A DNA stretch of 64,000 nucleotides from Prochlorococcus sp. AG-363-O15 (GTDB lineage Bacteria; Cyanobacteriota; Cyanobacteriia; PCC-6307; Cyanobiaceae), in contig QCFZ01000001.1 of the NCBI GenBank assembly GCA_003278255.1, positions 1 to 64,000 of the forward strand. Direction: 5' to 3'. Of this stretch, positions 3,058 to 61,853 are shown in pieces. The notes beneath the pieces were generated by a model. The model was not told where the DNA came from. It worked only from the letters and a program-made list of their open reading frames with translations, and made no database searches. Position 1 is the stretch's first letter. Each line of letters opens with the position of its first letter. A program made the translations under genes and the position numbers.

Positions 3058-3603
3058 GTGGTCGAGATGAGCGTGGCAGGACTCGGCCTGGATGCCTCTA
3101 ACAGAAGTCCTATTCTTTTGCTCCGTGACCCTTCTGGCCGTAGACAGGTTCCTATTTGGATAGACCACGCACAAGCCCACAACATAATGTCTGGTCTTCA
3201 AAAAGATCATTCTCAAAGACCTCTTAGTCATGACTTAATGATTAATCTTTTGGAAGCAGGAAATCTTTCTTTAGAAAGAGTCATTATTCACAATATTGAA
3301 GACAGTACATTTCAAGCAGTACTAAAACTCAGTCAAATAGTTAATGGAACTGCACAAAAAGACTTGTCTCAGACTATAGAAATCAATGCGCGTCCAAGCG
3401 ACGCAATAGCACTAGCGATTAGGACTGAATGCAGTATCTGGATGCTTGAAGAAGTCGTATCAGAAGCTTCAATACCAGTTGATGCTGATGCAGACGCAGA
3501 AGATCAAGATGAATTCCATCAGTTCATCGAAAAAATTAGTCCATCCGAATTAGTACAACACTTAAAAACAAGAGATTCCTCTGAAGAAAATCTGATTGAT
3601 TAA
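3058..3603 (+). CDS. bifunctional nuclease (DUF151/BFN) family protein
   Basis: A 181-aa protein with the DUF151/BFN domain over roughly residues 1-140. Markers are RSPILLLRDPSGRRQVPIWID and ARPSDAIALAIRTE. Plant homologues have been described as nucleases active on DNA and RNA, but the cyanobacterial role is not settled. The C-terminus is acidic (DADADAEDQDE). The start used is GTG at 3058, with ATG at 3067 as the alternative. It is the first of two same-strand genes, 23 bp before the aldo/keto reductase. Confidence 0.88.
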   Translation: MVEMSVAGLGLDASNRSPILLLRDPSGRRQVPIWIDHAQAHNIMSGLQKDHSQRPLSHDLMINLLEAGNLSLERVIIHNIEDSTFQAVLKLSQIVNGTAQKDLSQTIEINARPSDAIALAIRTECSIWMLEEVVSEASIPVDADADAEDQDEFHQFIEKISPSELVQHLKTRDSSEENLID

Positions 3604-3626
3604 GAAAACTAAGGACCATTTCATTT

Positions 3627-4763
3627 ATGAAAAAAGCACGACGACCCTTTGGAAAAGATTATTTAGTAAGTCTTTTCACACTTGGAACCATGAGAGCACT
3701 TAGCTCTGAAAAAGAAATGTATAATGTTATAAAAGCTTCAGCATTTGCCGGAATAAATCACATAGAAACAGCACCTTCTTATGGAGTGGCTGAGGAGCTA
3801 ATAGGTAAATCATTGCAAAAAATGAATCATCAAAATATTGAGCCTTTAGGTGGATGGATTATAACAAGCAAAATTTTACCTGGCATTGATTTAGCTAATG
3901 GAAAAAAACAAATAAAAAATAGTCTATCTAAACTCAAAATACCAAAAATCAACAACCTCGCGATTCATGGATTAAATACATATGAGCATCTCGAATGGTC
4001 ACTAAATGGAGATGGCGAAAAATTATTAAAATGGGCCCAAGGTGAAAATCTTATTGGTCAAGTAGGCTTTAGTTCCCATGGTCACTATTCCATCATCCAA
4101 GAAGCAATCAATAGTAAAAGATTTGATTTCTGCAGTCTTCACCTACATCTTTTAGATCCAGAGAGAATTCCTTTGGCCAAACATGCATTAACTTTAGGGA
4201 TGGGGGTAATGGCTATATCTCCAGCAGATAAGGGTGGGCGTTTACAAAATCCTAGTGAAACATTGAAAAAAGATTGTCATCCCTTTTCTCCATTAGAACT
4301 TGCCTATAGATTTCTTCTTTCACAAGGAATAAGTACCCTTACTGTTGGAGCAAATAATTCAGCAGATTTAGTCCTCGCCTCAAAACTTGCAAATGCAAGT
4401 AATCCTCTTGAAGAATCAGAGCAAATAGCAATTCAAAATATAAAAGACCAATCAAAGTATCGTCTTGGGGCTACCTATTGTGGGCAATGTCGTAATTGTC
4501 TTCCATGCCCTAAAAATGTACCTATTCCAGAAATTCTACGCCTTAGGAATCTATTAATAGGTCATGACATGAATGAATTCACCAAAGAAAGATATAACCT
4601 GATAGGCAAAGCCGATCATTGGTGGGAAGTTAAAGATGCAACAGCATGTATGAAGTGCGGAGATTGTCTTCCACGCTGTCCAAACCAATTAGAAATCCCT
4701 AATCTTCTCAAAGAAACACATAATCTATTAATTAACAAACCAAGGAGAAGACTATGGGGCTGA
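3627..4763 (+). CDS. aldo/keto reductase with C-terminal ferredoxin-like Fe-S motifs
   Basis: Predicted NAD(P)H-dependent oxidoreductase of 378 aa. The first ~280 residues form the aldo/keto reductase barrel: FGKDYLVSLFTLGTMR at the start, HIETAPSYG containing the usual catalytic tyrosine, then VGFSSHG and LTVGANN. The C-terminus carries CGQCRNCLPCPKNVPIP and CMKCGDCLPRCPNQLEIP, cysteine patterns typical of 4Fe-4S clusters. The substrate is unknown for this subfamily. Its end overlaps the convergent substrate-binding-protein gene by 12 bp. Confidence 0.9.
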   Translation: MKKARRPFGKDYLVSLFTLGTMRALSSEKEMYNVIKASAFAGINHIETAPSYGVAEELIGKSLQKMNHQNIEPLGGWIITSKILPGIDLANGKKQIKNSLSKLKIPKINNLAIHGLNTYEHLEWSLNGDGEKLLKWAQGENLIGQVGFSSHGHYSIIQEAINSKRFDFCSLHLHLLDPERIPLAKHALTLGMGVMAISPADKGGRLQNPSETLKKDCHPFSPLELAYRFLLSQGISTLTVGANNSADLVLASKLANASNPLEESEQIAIQNIKDQSKYRLGATYCGQCRNCLPCPKNVPIPEILRLRNLLIGHDMNEFTKERYNLIGKADHWWEVKDATACMKCGDCLPRCPNQLEIPNLLKETHNLLINKPRRRLWG

Positions 4764-23776: not shown

Positions 23777-24919
23777 GTGATCGGGTACATCTCTGACAAT
23801 CTGCTTATCCCGATCCTAGATTTTTTCTATGGATTGGTTCCAAGCTATGGCTTAGCAATCGTTGCCCTAACAATTGTTATAAGACTTGCATTGTTCCCTC
23901 TCAGCGCAGGGTCAATACGCAGCGCTCGTCGCATGCGCATAGCACAACCAGTAATGCAAAAGCGACAAGCAGAAATCAAAAGCAGATATGCAAATAACCC
24001 TCAAAAGCAGCAAGAAGAACTTGGAAAACTAATGAATGAATTTGGCAGTCCACTCTCTGGATGCCTACCTCTATTAGTTCAAATGCCGATACTCTTTGCT
24101 CTTTTTGCAACTCTTCGAGGATCACCTTTTGCAGATGTCCCTTATTTGATCAATCTAAAAGTTCTTCCTTCAGATCAAATAGCAGCTGTAGAACCCAAAC
24201 CATTTACCAGCCCTAGGCATTCGATCTTTGTAACAGAAACCAACCATGTGCCAGTTGTAGCTTCTCTTCCTGGAGGGACAAAAATTGGAACAGGTGAATC
24301 AGTAAAAATCAATCTTCAAACTCTTTCAGGTGAAACTTTTAGTAGTGTTCTCTCAAAATATGACAATGGAGCAAAATTCAATCCTGTTTGGAAAGTCACA
24401 AAGGGAGAAGATTTAGTAAAGGTAACTTCTGATGGAACTGTTAAAGCTCTATCAACTGGAGATGCAACTATTGAAGGAAAGATTCCTGGATTAGCTGCAA
24501 AAAGTGGATTCTTATTCATCAAAGCACTTGGTCAAGTAGGTTTTTATGTTGATGGAAATATCAATTGGGATATAGCAATTCTTGTAGGAGGGTTTGGTTT
24601 AACTTTATTAGTTTCACAAGTACTTTCAGGCAGAGGCATGCCTGCAAACCCTCAACAATCCACTGCAAATAAAATTACTCCAATAATGATCACTGGGATG
24701 TTTCTATTTTTCCCTTTACCGGCAGGAGTTCTCTTGTATATGGTCATTGCAAATATCTTCCAAGCCCTCCAGACATTCTTACTTAGTAGAGAAGCATTGC
24801 CAGATAATTTGCAGAAAATACTAGATCAACAAATTGCTCAAAAAGCCTCACCTGAATTAGCATCACCTAATTCAATTTCTTCAGATCGCTTACCATTTGA
24901 ACCTAAAAGCGGAAAATAG
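23777..24919 (+). CDS. yidC: membrane protein insertase YidC/Alb3 with inserted Ig-like segment
   Basis: Inserts proteins into the cytoplasmic and thylakoid membranes, 380 aa from a GTG start. The first conserved block is [20 protein letters not shown], and the second is [23 protein letters not shown]. The later helices are [15 protein letters not shown] and [22 protein letters not shown]. Between the second and third core helices lies an extra segment (about residues 136-252). It reads like a bacterial Ig-like (Big_2) fold: [20 protein letters not shown] followed by [11 protein letters not shown]. It is upstream of the broken yceD. Confidence 0.95.
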
Positions 24920-25434
24920 TTTCGGGCTTACAAGCAATTCCATTAAAGGGATTGAAAGCCCTATCGTCGTCCATGAAAGATTGGAATTTAAATGGCTACA
25001 TGGACAATCTCCTTACTCTTACTCCTCTTAAAGGAACCCTCTCAGCTAAACATCAAGGAAAAGCTCTATTTGTAAAAGGAAATGTAAATACTATTGCAAG
25101 TCTTTGTTGTGATAGGTGACTAGGAGGTTTCAACAAAAAAGATCAAATGCTATGCCGAAGAATTGATATGGATCGGAACAAATGATCAATCAACAAAGGG
25201 AAATTTTATCAAACATATTAATTATATGGATGACTTAATGGAATATATCGCACCTTTTGGGAACTTTGAGCCAGAGCAATGGGTATTTGAGCAAATTAGT
25301 TTAAGAATGCCTTTATTAAATATCTGTAGTCTGGAATGCCCAGGTCCAGATCATCGTTACCCTGAAGGTCTTAATGATCTTGTTAACCAGAAATCAATCA
25401 AAATGGGTTCATTCGATCCTCTTTGGACCTAACT
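24916..25434 (+). pseudogene. yceD: YceD/DUF177 family protein, disrupted
   Basis: Translation after yidC gives LQAIPLKGLKALSSSMKDW, then VNTIASLCCDR, which is YceD-like. The frame then meets TGA at 25117-25119, where the second cysteine of the CxxC-like pair is expected. A six-A run at 25135-25140 shifts the frame by +1. In the new frame the reading continues KCYAEELIWIG to NICSLECPGPDHRYPEG and stops after SFDPLWT. The conserved N-terminus also lacks an ATG, GTG or TTG upstream. The track lists only the downstream part (25163..25432). YceD is linked to 23S rRNA/L32 biogenesis elsewhere. The lesions look like a pseudogene unless they are sequencing errors. Confidence 0.82.
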
Positions 25435-25452
25435 AAAAAAATTGCTTTAGCC

Positions 25453-26976
25453 ATGGAAAGCTGGGAAAACCATCTAGACCTTTTAATTCGAGCAAGAACT
25501 CCTTTGATATGGATTCGGAGTGGTGAAGAGGAACGAGTTGAATTTTTAATTGGTCAAGCAGCCTCAAGGCTCCAATCAAGACGCTTTGCCTCTTGGGACT
25601 TTATTGATGGACTAAAAGGTGTTCTTAACTCAGAAGGCCTTGCTGCAAGACAACCTATGGCTGTCTTGCAATGGCTTCAAAAACTTGATGCAAATAATCC
25701 CACCATTCTTCTAGTAAAAGATTTTCATCGTTTTTGTGATGATGCCGGAATTGCTCGAATGCTGAGAAATCTCTCAACACAATTAAGACAATTACCTCAC
25801 ACAGTCGTACTTTCCACAGGCACTTGGTCTCCACCTAATGATCTTGATGATGCTTTGACAATCCTTGACTTACCTCTGCCTCAAGAACCTCAACTAAAAA
25901 AACTTCTCAGCAAAATCGCAGAGGCAAGTGGCAGTCCTCTTAAAAAAGAAGTTTTAGAAGAACTCACCCATGCTTGTAGTGGATTGAGTGAAGCAAGAGT
26001 TAGACAAGTCGCTGCTAGAGCTCTGGCTCAGCGCGGCCAAATGGGACTTGAAGATCTTGCAGAAGTGCTGGAAGAAAAAAGACAAAGCGTTGCTCGTAGC
26101 GAAGTTCTTGAATACTGCGAAACCCATGCCACACCAGCTGATATTGGAGGTTTAGATGCATTAAAAGCTTGGCTGGATCAACGTCATCAAGCTTTTTCTG
26201 ACGAAGCACGTAATTTCGGCCTTCCTCTCCCCAGAGGAGTATTACTGGTAGGTCCCCAAGGCACAGGCAAGTCTCTAACTGCCAAAGCAATAGCGCACAG
26301 CTGGTCAATGCCTCTTCTGAGACTTGATGTGGGCCGTCTTTTTGCCGGACTTGTAGGAGCAAGTGAAGCAAGAACTAGAGAAACTATTCAATGTGCTGAA
26401 GCAATGGCACCTTGTGTTCTATGGATAGACGAAATAGATAAAGGTTTTGGAGGAGATGCAAGAAGTGATGGAGGCACAAGTCAAAGAGTCCTTGCAAACG
26501 TACTTACATGGATGGCAGAAAAAACTTCAGCTGTTTTTGTAGTTGCTACAGCCAATGGAATAGAACGACTACCTGGAGAATTACTACGCAAAGGACGCTT
26601 TGATGAAATATTTTTGCTTGATCTACCTTCTACGGAAGAAAGATTCAGCATCCTTCAACTTCACATCCAACAACGAAGACCAAACTTAAAAGTTGCATTG
26701 TCCACAGTAGTTGATAGAACTATTGGTTTTTCTGGGGCCGAACTCGAACAAACTGTTATAGAAGGAATGCATTTTGCCTTCGCAGAACGTCGAGAGCTAG
26801 AAGAAACTGATTTAATTCTTGCCGCAACTCAATTGGTGCCTTTATCCAGAACAGCAAAAGAACAGCTCCAGTCCCTAAAGGAATGGTCAGCTGGCGGAAG
26901 AGCCAGGCCAGCCTCAATAATGTTAAGTAAGTCACTAAAGACAGATCCCGAATTCGGAAGCCAAGAAAATTTTTAA
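25453..26976 (+). CDS. ycf46: Ycf46-type AAA+ ATPase
   Basis: About 508 aa. The N-terminal domain (residues 1-230, MESWENHLDLLIRARTPLIW) is the Ycf46-specific part, followed by a AAA+ module. Walker A is GPQGTGKSLTAKA, Walker B CVLWIDEIDKGFGGD, and the sensor/arginine-finger region VVATANGIERLPGELLRKGRFDE. Cyanobacterial and algal-plastid Ycf46 has been linked to photosynthesis and inorganic carbon use. I chose ATG at 25453; the track's TTG at 25423 overlaps the yceD remnant. Confidence 0.93.
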   Translation: MESWENHLDLLIRARTPLIWIRSGEEERVEFLIGQAASRLQSRRFASWDFIDGLKGVLNSEGLAARQPMAVLQWLQKLDANNPTILLVKDFHRFCDDAGIARMLRNLSTQLRQLPHTVVLSTGTWSPPNDLDDALTILDLPLPQEPQLKKLLSKIAEASGSPLKKEVLEELTHACSGLSEARVRQVAARALAQRGQMGLEDLAEVLEEKRQSVARSEVLEYCETHATPADIGGLDALKAWLDQRHQAFSDEARNFGLPLPRGVLLVGPQGTGKSLTAKAIAHSWSMPLLRLDVGRLFAGLVGASEARTRETIQCAEAMAPCVLWIDEIDKGFGGDARSDGGTSQRVLANVLTWMAEKTSAVFVVATANGIERLPGELLRKGRFDEIFLLDLPSTEERFSILQLHIQQRRPNLKVALSTVVDRTIGFSGAELEQTVIEGMHFAFAERRELEETDLILAATQLVPLSRTAKEQLQSLKEWSAGGRARPASIMLSKSLKTDPEFGSQENF

Positions 26977-35253: not shown

Positions 35254-35321
35254 CTGATGCAATTTCCAAGCATCCAACCATAAACGGCCAGCCCTCGAAA
35301 TGATTGTCAAAATGATTTTCT

Positions 35322-35395
35322 GCTCCCTTAGCTCAGCTGGATAGAGCAGCTGCCTTCTAAGCAGCCGGTCGTTGGTTCGAATCCAACAGGGGGCG
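35322..35395 (+). tRNA. tRNA-Arg (anticodon TCT)
   Basis: The 74 nt fold into a full cloverleaf. The acceptor stem GCTCCCT pairs with AGGGGGC with one T-G wobble. The D arm is GCTCAGCTGGATAGAGC, the anticodon stem GCTGC/GCAGC with loop CTTCTAA, and the T arm GTTGG TTCGAAT CCAAC. The anticodon is TCT, reading AGA/AGG. CCA is not encoded. It lies just upstream of the HTH gene on the opposite strand. Confidence 0.97.
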
Positions 35396-35684
35396 TATTT
35401 TCAACCATTCCTATTTTCGAAGCACATAAATAAAAGTATTTATAAAAATAGAGACACTAGATTTTTCATATATAAACAAAGAATCTTGTCTCATTTACTA
35501 TGCTTTAAAGAGATTTGCTAAACATTTTTAATCCAACTAATTCTGGTACAAACACAAAAAAATAATTTAAATACTTAATACCTAAAGAGCTTATACGCAA
35601 TCATTTGCAACACTTGCGACAAACAAATTAAGAAAAATAGCCAAATTATGGTCAAATAATTATGGACATAGGGTAATTATTGAC
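35396..35684 (+). other. AT-rich intergenic region after tRNA-Arg
   Basis: These 289 bases have no ORF of credible length on either strand. The composition is very AT-rich. No perfect inverted repeat, integrase core site or tRNA fragment was seen. It probably contains the promoter of the class II aldolase gene. Confidence 0.5.
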
Positions 35685-36371
35685 ATGAGCGAACTAATCA
35701 AAAAGTTCAATAGTTGGAGGGAAGGTCTTGTCCTAAGAAAACAATTAATTGATACTGCAGGAGAAATTAATGGGTTAGGTATAAATCAAGGAAAGTCTGG
35801 AAATCTATCGATAAGAATACCAGGAGGAATGTTAATTACTCCTGGTTCTATTTCATATCAGAAAATTAAACCATATGATCTAGTAGCCCTTGATCTAAAT
35901 GGCAATGCTATTAAGAGTAAAAACAAAGGTTTCCCAAAAAGGCCTTCAAGTGAATGGAAGCTTCATGCAGAAATATATCACAATAGAACTGAAGTAAATG
36001 CAATTATTCATTGTCATTCAATAAATGCAACTGCACTTTCTTGTCATAATAAAGAAATAACAAGTTTCCACTATATGACTGCTATTGCTGGTGGTAAAAC
36101 TATTCGTTGTGCTGAATATGCAACATTTGGGAGCAGTGATCTGCCCAAAAAAACATTAAAGGCTCTCGAAGGGCGCCTAGCTTGTTTATTAGCCCACCAT
36201 GGTCAAATAGCAATAGCTCCTAGCCTAGAAAAAGCATTGGAAATAGCAATAGAAGTCGAGACATTATCAAATATTTATCTAAAGGCATTACAGATAGGTC
36301 CACCAAACAATATTGATTCCAACGAAATGGAAAAGGTCATAGAAAAATTTAATCTCATTAACTATAAATAG
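35685..36371 (+). CDS. class II aldolase/adducin family protein
   Basis: A 228-aa zinc-dependent aldolase-fold protein. Characteristic pieces are GLGINQGKSGNLSIRIPGGMLITPGSI, WKLHAEIYHNRTEVNAIIHCHS (HxH metal ligands) and LLAHHGQIAIAPSLEKALEIA. Relatives include fuculose-1-phosphate aldolase, ribulose-phosphate 4-epimerase and MtnB. The substrate cannot be assigned. It stands alone in an AT-rich region beside tRNA-Arg, without salvage-pathway genes nearby. Confidence 0.88.
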   Translation: MSELIKKFNSWREGLVLRKQLIDTAGEINGLGINQGKSGNLSIRIPGGMLITPGSISYQKIKPYDLVALDLNGNAIKSKNKGFPKRPSSEWKLHAEIYHNRTEVNAIIHCHSINATALSCHNKEITSFHYMTAIAGGKTIRCAEYATFGSSDLPKKTLKALEGRLACLLAHHGQIAIAPSLEKALEIAIEVETLSNIYLKALQIGPPNNIDSNEMEKVIEKFNLINYK

Positions 36372-36390
36372 TAATAAAAAATCCATACAA

Positions 36391-36693
36391 TTAATTTGGC
36401 GGGACTATCTTCTTAAGAGAAATAGCAATCTCTTCACATCTAGTAGATCTCAGTAGAATAGATTCAGAACTCCTCACTTCTACTTGCAGCTGTGATTTAC
36501 TTGAAGATAGCAAAGAAATTATCACCTTAACTAGTGGTTTAGAAAGATCACGTGAGGGTGAAGTTTCTGCATAAACCTGCTTTTGACTAGAAAATTTTTG
36601 AACTACATCAAGTCCTAATTCTCTTAAGGAAGCATCAAAAATACCTAGCAAAGATTTCGAGTTAGAAAAACTAGTCCAGGAGAAAGCGGCCAT
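36391..36693 (-). CDS. hypothetical protein, unrecognised
   Basis: A 100-aa protein without a signal peptide or membrane helix. The N-terminus MAAFSWTSFSNSKSLLGIF is followed by an alternating hydrophobic pattern (VKVIISLLSSSKSQLQVEV) suggesting beta strands. It is convergent with the aldolase gene, 19 bp apart. The start ATG at 36693 is followed upstream by an AT-rich promoter-like region. I cannot name a family. Confidence 0.55.
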   Translation of the reverse strand: MAAFSWTSFSNSKSLLGIFDASLRELGLDVVQKFSSQKQVYAETSPSRDLSKPLVKVIISLLSSSKSQLQVEVRSSESILLRSTRCEEIAISLKKIVPPN

Positions 36694-36946
36694 TAAAAAT
36701 TATTTTTTTTTGTAATTCAAACTCTTTATATACATGTCTCGGTCAAGAAAACAAGAAGCACTTTCCAAAAGCAACTTTTTATACAATTGTCTATTTCATC
36801 ATTATCTCTATAGCGCAGAATATGAAGAAATACAATTCTAAAAATAACAAAGCCTAATAAATACTAAATCATCCAATCAACAAATTATAAAGTGGATTGA
36901 TCGCTAAGGATGCGTTTAACTGTAAATTAAATACACCCTTAGTTCC
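36694..36946 (+). other. AT-rich divergent intergenic region
   Basis: These 253 bases separate the divergent hypothetical (minus) and membrane-hypothetical (plus) genes, so they should contain both promoters. No ORF, tRNA or clear hairpin was seen. The last bases run GTAAATTAAATACACCC before the downstream ATG. Confidence 0.45.
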
Positions 36947-37621
36947 ATGGCTTACTCTGAAGCTGAAGTCCTTGCAGGCGGCCTAGCTCATATCCCAGTA
37001 GCAGTGGGGATTTTAATCTTCATCAACAATATTATCAAAATACGTACTTATAATTCCACTGAACTTGTAAAGCAAGATAAACAGAATACTACTAATATTT
37101 TGAAAAAGAAAAATCCTGTAGACCAAGAAAGAAGTTACTTGAATAAAGATGCTCTGAATTCCGAGATTAATCTTCAAGAAAAGGAAGTGAATCTAACTAT
37201 GACAGAAGAAGCAAATTTAGAAGAAGAAAGTATTTATACAAAAACAACTGAAAGGGAACTACAAACAAATTCAAATGTTCAAAATCAAAGTTTAGAAGAG
37301 CAGGCTCTATTCGAAAGGAGCCTTCAAGAAAAAGCAAATCAAATTGAAGTCGAAGAAATACTTAGAGAATCAAAATCACCTTTTACAAAAAAAGAAAGTG
37401 CTCAAGCAAGTAATTATAAAAAACTCAAATATCTTAATCCATGGAACATTGCTGCTCTGTCTTTACTATTTTTTAGTGGGGGAGCAATTATTCTTTTTGA
37501 AGAAGGCATCCCCCTCAAACATATAAAACAAAATTCTCAAGAGGGCATAAGCAATGAAATAATTATGAAATCTAATCCTCTTCTAAGTTTAGTATCAATC
37601 AACAAGAAGAGGGCTTCTTAA
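36947..37621 (+). CDS. two-helix membrane protein with charged, glutamate-rich middle; unrecognised
   Basis: A 224-aa protein with an N-terminal hydrophobic segment (HIPVAVGILIFINNIIKI) and a second one near residues 163-182 (IAALSLLFFSGGAIILF). Between them is a long Glu/Gln/Lys/Asn-rich stretch (residues 35-150) likely to be helical or disordered. No family is recognised. Such low-complexity composition makes homology searches unreliable. It is flanked by other small membrane proteins, but no operon partner is obvious. Confidence 0.55.
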   Translation: MAYSEAEVLAGGLAHIPVAVGILIFINNIIKIRTYNSTELVKQDKQNTTNILKKKNPVDQERSYLNKDALNSEINLQEKEVNLTMTEEANLEEESIYTKTTERELQTNSNVQNQSLEEQALFERSLQEKANQIEVEEILRESKSPFTKKESAQASNYKKLKYLNPWNIAALSLLFFSGGAIILFEEGIPLKHIKQNSQEGISNEIIMKSNPLLSLVSINKKRAS

Positions 37622-37681
37622 AAAGGGTATACTCTAATGACTAAAATCGAATAATATTCCCTTGCGTGTAAGTTTAATTTC

Positions 37682-37948
37682 TTATTCTCTACCTACATTA
37701 TAGATAAAGTCTTGAAAAGATGGATTATAAAAATAAAGCAGTACCGCAATGAGCAACAAAATATTTAGGCCTATCACAATTGAACCTATAACCATTCTTT
37801 GCCTTTTGCCAGGCATTCTGTATTTCAAACCTGCAGGCAAATTAAGCAATACTTCTTGTTTCTCTTCTGATTTAGGACTAACTTCATTTGAAAAAAAGCC
37901 CTTCTTAGAATTTGAAGCGTTATTAGGGGATCGCTTTTGCTCTTCCAT
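37682..37948 (-). CDS. small single-helix membrane protein, unrecognised
   Basis: An 88-aa protein. A disordered, charged N-terminus (residues 1-45) precedes GLKYRMPGKRQRMV, one membrane helix (IGSIVIGLNILLLIAVLLYFY) and a short tail. The positive residues before the helix predict the N-terminus in the cytoplasm. It is probably conserved among picocyanobacteria, but I cannot assign a family. It is convergent with the preceding membrane-hypothetical gene. Confidence 0.55.
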   Translation of the reverse strand: MEEQKRSPNNASNSKKGFFSNEVSPKSEEKQEVLLNLPAGLKYRMPGKRQRMVIGSIVIGLNILLLIAVLLYFYNPSFQDFIYNVGRE

Positions 37949-50059: not shown

Positions 50060-50525
50060 ATTTTTATGCTCCTACCACTTTGAAATGGAACAAGGTGTAT
50101 TCCCTGAAGTCTCCTTTAAAAAAATGCTCATTGGGCTTACTGTAGTTAAATCCCCAGAATCATTGGATTTTAGGGGAGGGGGGCAATGACTTATTCATAT
50201 TCTCCCTAAAAACACGTCATTTTGCAGGTAGTGAAAACCAATCGCAATTTCAAACCGAGATACTGAACTGGCTAGTAAAAATTTCCAAATCAGATCTATT
50301 CATAAATGAACAAGGCATAGTCTCTGTATTTACAAGGGATATTTGATTCGATCCACCTATTGGACAAGCTCGTCTTTTGAAGTTCTCCCACATGCAAGGG
50401 TTAAAAATCAAAATTAATTTCGGAAGAATATTCATTTGTAATATTTCCAAATCAGCGCTCTCCTTACGAAGAGTTTCGCAAAGGAGTATTAACCGTTAAC
50501 GTCTTATTCAGTTAGCTTTTTAAGA
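50060..50525 (+). other. 466-bp gap with possible coding remnant
   Basis: No confident gene is present. One plus-strand frame is open from 50146 to 50343, is interrupted by TGA at 50344, then is open again to a TAA at 50497. Its translation (for example QTEILNWLVKISKSDLFINE) has no start codon upstream and no recognised family. A 13-nt direct repeat (ATTTCCAAATCAG) occurs at about 50281 and 50443. A GC-rich bulged hairpin (CCCC/GGGG) sits at 50151-50177. The promoters of DUF1825 and the HhH gene should also lie here. Confidence 0.45.
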
Positions 50526-51155
50526 ATGTCCCGTCGCCATTGGTTGGATCCACTGGCTCGGCAAGTGCTCAAGGCAACTGGTCATTTACCTAATTCAAGA
50601 AAAACGAGAACATCCAATAGCAAAGAAATTGAACGAGCCCTTAAAGCCCTAAAAAGCACGCAAAGGAAATTAGAGAAAAGTCCTTCTTTTTTTGTCGATG
50701 TAAATCGAGCTAAAAGATCTGATTGGCAAAAACTTAAAGGCTGTACAGAAGCAATGATTGATCTATTGCTAAGACTTCAAAATGGAGGCGTCCAATTAAG
50801 TTGTTCTGAAGATCTGTGTTTGCTTCTAGAGCTACCAGATCAGCTAGTCGAACAATGGAACCCTCACTTAGTATTCCGTTGGTATGGAGATTCTCCGCCT
50901 TTACCTGATTTTTCACAAATAGACTTAAATAATGCGGATTTAGAATGCATTAAAAAAAATCTAAATTGGTCAAATCAACTCATCAATAAACTCTTAAAAG
51001 AAAGACAAAGAAAACCTTTTGAACACTTAGCAGATCTACAGGAAAGAATGTGCTTAGCTCCTTCAAAAATAGAAGAGTTAATTGGGAATGTGCGCTTTGG
51101 GTCAAGACACTTTAGTCCCACTCTTCCACCAGACTGTAAAAATGGAAGACCTTAG
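50526..51155 (+). CDS. helix-hairpin-helix (ComEA-like) protein
   Basis: A 209-aa protein. The C-terminal half (PDFSQIDLNNADLECIKKNLN, then KPFEHLADLQERMCLAPSKIEEL) matches the HhH DNA-binding repeat of ComEA. Unlike true ComEA it lacks a membrane anchor and a signal peptide, so it is probably cytoplasmic. The N-terminal half is basic and unrecognised. The start is ATG at 50526. It overlaps the GIY-YIG gene by 14 bp, and the pairing suggests a joint DNA-related role. Confidence 0.75.
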   Translation: MSRRHWLDPLARQVLKATGHLPNSRKTRTSNSKEIERALKALKSTQRKLEKSPSFFVDVNRAKRSDWQKLKGCTEAMIDLLLRLQNGGVQLSCSEDLCLLLELPDQLVEQWNPHLVFRWYGDSPPLPDFSQIDLNNADLECIKKNLNWSNQLINKLLKERQRKPFEHLADLQERMCLAPSKIEELIGNVRFGSRHFSPTLPPDCKNGRP

Positions 51156-59998: not shown

Positions 59999-60775
59999 TT
60001 ACTTGTAATTGCGTGGTTTAGAGGTGACCCCTTGGACCCGTTTAAGGATCTCACCGTATGCCTCGACAACACCACCTAGATCTTGACGGAATCGATCTTT
60101 ATCCAAAATTCGATCATTTGAATCAAGGGTTCTCTTGTCCCAAATTCGACAAGTATCAGGACTAATCTCATCAGCAACTAAAAGTTCACCTGAATTATTG
60201 ATCCCCATTTCTAATTTGAAGTCAACAAGCACAAGGTCAATTTTATCTAGAAAATCCTTTAAAAAATCATTCACCCAACGAGCTAGTTTCTCAATTTCCA
60301 AGCGCTTGGCATGACTAACTATTCCAAGGATTTCTAATCGAGACTCAGTAAGCAAAGGGTCTGACAAGGAGTCATCCTTATAATAAAGATCTAATAAGGG
60401 TGGAGAAAGTTCTTTGCCTTCAATTATTGGAGTCTGTTTACAGAGAGAGCCAGTAGCAATATTCCTAACAACAATTTCCAAAGGAATAACCTCTACCTTT
60501 TGAACCATCATCCATTCCTCTGACAACAAGCCTAGGTAATGATTTGGGATTCCTTCTTGTTCCAAAAGTTCAAACAGAGATGCAGATATCTGACAATTAA
60601 TTCTTCCTTTACCTTCTAGCTGAGAATGCTTTAAAGCATTAAAGGCAGTTGCATCATTCTTAAATTCAACCAAGACACTATCTATATCTTTACAGGCATA
60701 TATCCTTTTTGCCTTGCCTTCATACATTAATAAGCCGTGATCAGGTGACATTTGATTTATTTGAGAATGAGTCAA
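59999..60775 (-). CDS. purC: SAICAR synthetase
   Basis: Phosphoribosylaminoimidazole-succinocarboxamide synthase of purine biosynthesis, 258 aa. The N-terminus [19 protein letters not shown] and the block [18 protein letters not shown] are diagnostic, as are [32 protein letters not shown]. An earlier start may be wrong, as LMYEGKAKR is normally near position 5. It is followed by bamA, 15 bp away. Confidence 0.96.
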
Positions 60776-60793
60776 AAAATGGTTTCATCCATC

Positions 60794-61765
60794 CTAGTCC
60801 TTCATCTCTTTCAATTTAGAGTCATCTTTTTTTGGAATGCTCAAAAAATGTCTAAGATTGCTCGGATCTTTTTGAAGTGAATGATTTGAATTAATAAGTT
60901 CCAATAAGGTATAATCATCATCTAATTCTATTGCCAATGATTCAAGTTTTCCCCTTAGAGATTTAACATCATCGCCTTCAATCAAAGCAAGTATGAATTG
61001 CAATCTAAGAATATCTTCAACTAACCACCAAGCCTTATCAGAATAAGCCTGATTAAAAGCCTTATCCAACAATCTTGCACGCTTATCTCTTTCTAAATGA
61101 CCAATAAGCTGTGCAGCAAGTGCAATGCGTCTTGCTCCAATTGCACCACTTTTTCTTCCTGCCAAAAGAACCATTGCAGCCGAATCCCAACGTCCAATTG
61201 ACTGCTCATGTTCAGCCAATAAATCAAGTGCTGAAAGTTTGAGAGGGACCCCATCCTTGCTATAACTAACTGTGAGCATTTCTTTTTCTAATTTTTCTAG
61301 GTCACCTTCCACCAATTCAGTTAAAGCCCAAGAAGCTTTTGAATGATCCATTGCTGCCTTTGCTGCCTGCCAGGAAAGGATTAACCAACTTCTTCGCTCA
61401 ATCTCTGAAACCGGATTTATACCTTTAAGCAATTCTTGTGCAGTCTTGGGAGATTTACAGGCCATATGCGCATTGGCATTAGCCATGACAAGTTCATAGG
61501 TTTTGGGAGACGGTGCAACAGACAATAATTTTTTGCTAAGCACTCTGAGCCGATTATTTAAAGCAAAAGTTGAAGCATTAATACAAGCATTTTTCAACTC
61601 CAAGAAATCACCATTTCTCAATATTTGTTCATAAGAGTTTTCAGGAATAGGCTTAGAAAGACTTCTTTTTTCATTAGACATAGCTCTTGACACGGAGCTA
61701 TAACCAACTGAAACCATCAAGAAAATGGTTAGGGAAAGAAATTGAATCCCCATAAAGCCAAACAT
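60794..61765 (-). CDS. exported helical (TPR-like) hypothetical protein
   Basis: A 323-aa protein with an N-terminal hydrophobic signal (GIQFLSLTIFLMVSVGYSSV). The rest is helical with repeated short blocks resembling TPR units (SALDLLAEHEQSIGRWDSAAM, RRIALAAQLIGHLERDK). The cellular role is unknown. It is upstream of purC on the same strand (18 bp) and divergent from purD over 88 bp. Confidence 0.62.
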   Translation of the reverse strand: MFGFMGIQFLSLTIFLMVSVGYSSVSRAMSNEKRSLSKPIPENSYEQILRNGDFLELKNACINASTFALNNRLRVLSKKLLSVAPSPKTYELVMANANAHMACKSPKTAQELLKGINPVSEIERRSWLILSWQAAKAAMDHSKASWALTELVEGDLEKLEKEMLTVSYSKDGVPLKLSALDLLAEHEQSIGRWDSAAMVLLAGRKSGAIGARRIALAAQLIGHLERDKRARLLDKAFNQAYSDKAWWLVEDILRLQFILALIEGDDVKSLRGKLESLAIELDDDYTLLELINSNHSLQKDPSNLRHFLSIPKKDDSKLKEMKD

Positions 61766-61853
61766 TTCAACAAAATTGAGAGAGGGTATTGGTTCAACCT
61801 GGCAAAATCATGCCTTCCCAAACCTAGGGGTAATCACATGCCAATCTGCTGCT

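Follow-up and report, generated by a model that had tools for sequence, protein, structure and literature searches.

YceD (DUF177, PF02620) is nearly universal in bacteria, and its molecular role has been described as unknown (PMC5049393). Deletion of yceD in E. coli lowers 23S rRNA and leaves growth unaffected, and in plants the homologous DUF177A is essential for accumulation of the plastid 23S rRNA (PMC5049393). Members of the family carry two cysteine motifs, C-X2-C and C-X3-C (PMC5049393). In many bacteria the gene lies next to rpmF; intact picocyanobacterial genomes, in contrast, place it between yidC and ycf46. The window (the whole 64,000-nucleotide stretch analysed, bases 1-64000 of contig C1) retains this yidC-yceD-ycf46 arrangement, with a full-length relic of yceD at 24916-25450 (plus strand) that belongs by profile to the same family as the E. 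coli, plastid and cyanobacterial proteins. Both cysteine motifs remain recognisable in the relic, whereas its open reading frame is destroyed.

The window genome is represented by a 1.34 Mb assembly of 40 contigs that is 71% complete, and it is most closely related to single-cell Prochlorococcus genomes, AG-363-A16 and AG-409-B05 among them. As originally predicted, the genes flanking the relic are intact: yidC upstream (23777-24919, plus strand; PF02096, E=3e-35) and the AAA ATPase gene ycf46 downstream (25453-26976, plus strand; PF00004, E=8e-35). The latter was matched in 400 of 400 sampled genomes of the family and served as the marker of the yceD locus across them. A yceD profile built for this lineage from 19 intact relatives matched two frames of the relic at the protein level (E=2e-30 and 2e-24), and the corresponding DNA profile spans almost the entire yidC-ycf46 interval (E=1e-79). 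Judged by these profile matches, the likeness to yceD is evidently not due to chance, and the identification of the gene made in the original prediction holds. Against the general family model PF02620 the relic reaches 24.1 bits (E=3.1e-5), below the cut-off of 33.2 bits, because its reading frame is broken. Synteny with rpmF, which had been proposed as a check, does not apply, since in this genome rpmF, the gene for L32, is located on another contig (C36) and yceD adjoins yidC and ycf46. Searches for a promoter or terminator that might explain the segment returned nothing above chance.

Alignment of the relic to the yceD genes of the 19 intact relatives revealed a full-length YceD sequence disabled by independent lesions. 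The first affects the start: in most intact relatives the yceD start and the yidC stop overlap in the four bases ATGA, which read ATAG here, so that the ancestral ATG has become ATA (24916-24918, plus strand) and no ATG, GTG or TTG is present at the ancestral start position. The in-frame starts left downstream are a TTG (24952) and an ATG (24973). From 24916, 67 YceD-like residues are followed by a TGA nonsense codon (25117-25119, plus strand) in the context CCDR*LGGF, exactly where the second cysteine of the C-X2-C motif (CDRC) is expected; open reading frames of 18 relatives align across this codon, and all intact relatives in the alignment encode an ordinary cysteine at that position. The third lesion is an A6 run with one extra base (25135-25140, plus strand), which causes a +1 frameshift; no other frame split within the window has multiple support. 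After this run the YceD-like reading continues one base out of register (TKKIKCYAEELIWIG). In that frame, the sequence from 25136 reads KKIKCYAEELIWIGT...FDPLWT, a TAA codon (25430-25432), LKKLL and a TAG codon (25448-25450). The first cysteine motif is reduced to CDR* without its second cysteine, and the second motif, CSLEC, is kept in the other frame. Near the C-terminus, CTT (Leu) replaces the invariant arginine of the D[PS]R motif (R188L; 25421-25423, plus strand).

The original prediction had listed three lesions, namely the missing start, the nonsense codon and the frameshift. All three are present, yet the count falls one short, as the TAA at 25430-25432 (plus strand; FDPLWT*LKKLL*) is a fourth, lying six codons before the ancestral stop. 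For the same reason the relic extends to the ancestral TAG (25448-25450, plus strand), which is separated from the ycf46 ATG by 2 nt, a spacing shared with several intact relatives, and not only to 25434 as first proposed. The YceD reading frame is not intact, being broken by the lost start, the TGA, the +1 shift and the TAA; with these four changes combined, the segment would be unable to yield a full-length YceD by standard decoding.

Could the lesions be errors of sequencing, amplification or assembly in an otherwise intact yceD? Frameshifts in homopolymers are typical of such errors, and apart from its lesions the relic is conserved to the same degree as intact copies. As an error control, 1145 stop-to-stop open frames of related regions were compared with the window by alignment, and interrupted genes were counted once antisense and 5'-extension artefacts had been removed. 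Apart from the yceD segment, the roughly 55.7 kb of the window assigned to coding frames showed no frameshift or in-frame stop, as opposed to the four lesions and the substituted invariant arginine found in the 535 bp of the relic. The errors published for a single-cell pipeline amount to 3.0 indels and 5.0 mismatches per 100 kb (PMC6122165); at these rates, the probability of at least four errors in 535 bp is 1.4e-7, a value that assumes that the genome comes from the same single-cell set as its relatives, a membership inferred from those relatives and from the size and fragmentation of the assembly. Moreover, yceD has been deleted outright in related lineages. The earlier view that the lesions make sequencing error less likely is strengthened by this control, the published rates and the deletions, and we regard error as a very unlikely source of the lesions. 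The segment carries several lesions, occupies the orthologous position and is the only trace of yceD in the 71%-complete assembly, where a profile search for the second copy that had been considered found no other YceD; it is very probably a real unitary pseudogene.

Even less probable is a division of yceD into two small functional proteins, encoded at 24952-25119 (55 aa) and 25163-25432 (89 aa). Both open frames do contain recognisable YceD sequence; however, the ancestral start is lost and only TTG or internal ATG starts would be available, the two cysteine motifs would end up in separate products with the first motif cut at its second cysteine, the C-terminal end is truncated as well, and a split form occurs in none of the relatives examined. 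Continued use of the gene through recoding, with selenocysteine inserted at the TGA and programmed slippage at the A6 run, is barely credible: the TGA does fall exactly on a conserved cysteine and the slippery A6 follows it, but no SelA was found in the window genome or in 19 relatives, the intact relatives aligned carry a cysteine codon at the site, the start codon is lost as well, and a further stop, the TAA, lies downstream.

YceD evolves fast in these organisms, with intact pairs averaging 39% identity, compared with 77% for their neighbours. The pseudogene shows the same mean identity to intact yceD genes (39%), and its mean residual from the value predicted by species distance (-0.015) falls within the spread seen for intact genes (-0.05 to +0.05). 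Similarly, the relic carries changes at 5 of the 31 near-invariant sites, one of them due to the nonsense codon, as against 1-7 in intact genes. By identity residuals, the relic therefore has no excess divergence beyond intact yceD genes, which argues that its inactivation in the window genome was probably recent. Decay of the gene is thus evident from its lesions and not from excess divergence.

Loss of yceD is not peculiar to the window genome. In many Prochlorococcus and Synechococcus relatives an intact yceD fills the yidC-ycf46 gap of 511-552 bp, its start codon in most cases overlapping the yidC stop. Other relatives, several deep lineages among them, have no yceD and a gap of just 15-158 bp; a profile search recognised no yceD remains in these short gaps. 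The lineages closest to the window by tree path, L142 (gap of 158 bp) and L143 (104 bp), represented by genomes G001 and G019, both lack yceD, and the gene is likewise absent from the locus in G197, G009 and G123. Whole well-known Prochlorococcus clades lack it: PF02620 was found in none of 121 genomes of one Prochlorococcus genus (g17), 41 of which are at least 90% complete, and in none of 41 genomes of a second (g56). Strain MIT 0701 (L051), on the other hand, retains yceD.

For a tree of 40 lineages built from nine genes (3286 columns), parsimony requires at least eight changes in yceD state, and on a four-gene tree of 95 loci it requires nine. A single common loss was rejected, as a tree that places every non-carrier in one group falls short by 608 log-likelihood units (AU p = 2.5e-96). 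One shared loss for the window and L142, L143 and L163 was weakly rejected (AU p = 0.03). Several non-carriers fall within well-supported clades that also contain carriers, for example L161 with L148, so the repetition of the loss does not depend on the weakly resolved branches near the window; the exact number of losses does rest on those branches. Since yceD occupies one and the same position wherever these loci carry it, its loss is far more probable than repeated gain. On these trees, the gene appears to have been lost independently at least some eight or nine times in the picocyanobacterial family. Taking the locus and the trees together, we consider it highly probable that the segment derives from a vertically inherited yceD that was inactivated recently, and that it represents one of these roughly eight or nine independent losses.

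Several further states of the locus were noted. In L047 (positions 3587-4000; the same locus as L161, genome G190), yidC and ycf46 are separated by an AT-rich gap of 414 bp without yceD remains recognisable by profile, which is perhaps a fully decayed relic; the sister lineages L148 and L166 retain an intact gene. Outside Prochlorococcus, yceD is absent from 10 of 10 genomes of the picocyanobacterial genus g8 (1.4-2.5 Mb), and in one of them (G007, L237) ycf46 directly follows yidC. Synechococcus sp. Tobar12-5m-g (L095, 3948-3997) lacks yceD at the locus, and its sister L102 has it. In a complete Synechococcus-like genome (G128, contig C1, 572579-573166), the yceD match falls into two pieces about 40 bp apart within a 212-codon frame, suggesting a YceD protein with an insertion.

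Possible partners of YceD were not lost along with it. L32 was detected in 30 of 40 genomes, without any apparent relation to the presence of yceD, and comparison of its sequences by eye revealed no difference between carriers and non-carriers. Almost every genome still has RNase III and Mini-III, whether or not it carries yceD. Co-loss of these partners was rejected on this basis, as all three are retained irrespective of yceD. The repeated loss in Prochlorococcus, with L32, RNase III and Mini-III still in place, shows that the 70S ribosome of a photosynthetic cell can work without YceD. The simplest account would be that YceD has a small effect and that Prochlorococcus can manage without it, the gene having become dispensable there as in E. 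coli. A dispensable yceD would first be disabled by point mutation and then deleted through the deletion bias of streamlined genomes; the window would represent the point-mutation stage and the neighbouring lineages the end stage. More tentatively, and with some doubt, an ancestral change in Prochlorococcus ribosome assembly may have made YceD dispensable, hence the repeated parallel loss. If so, sister lineages with and without yceD would be natural knock-outs that could reveal the role of YceD for 23S rRNA. Matched lineages of both kinds are available for a functional test.

A study of Prochlorococcus genome streamlining (Sun and Blanchard 2014; PMC3940434) assigns strong selection and gene loss, according to its title, to an early phase of the genus, and its text makes no mention of DUF177. 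The case of yceD has in common with such streamlining losses that a small-effect gene was lost from a reduced, free-living genome; it differs in that a near-universal, ribosome-linked gene was lost about eight times in parallel. No report of yceD loss in Prochlorococcus was found in the literature searched. The window relic contributes a loss caught at the pseudogene stage, among the many that this near-universal gene has undergone in parallel.

Elsewhere in the window, three segments (35263-37687, 50069-51135 and 60752-61805) were unmatched by open frames of the related regions compared. The first of them contains a tRNA-Arg gene (35321-35396) and an open reading frame at 35685-36371 that resembles a class II aldolase-type protein.
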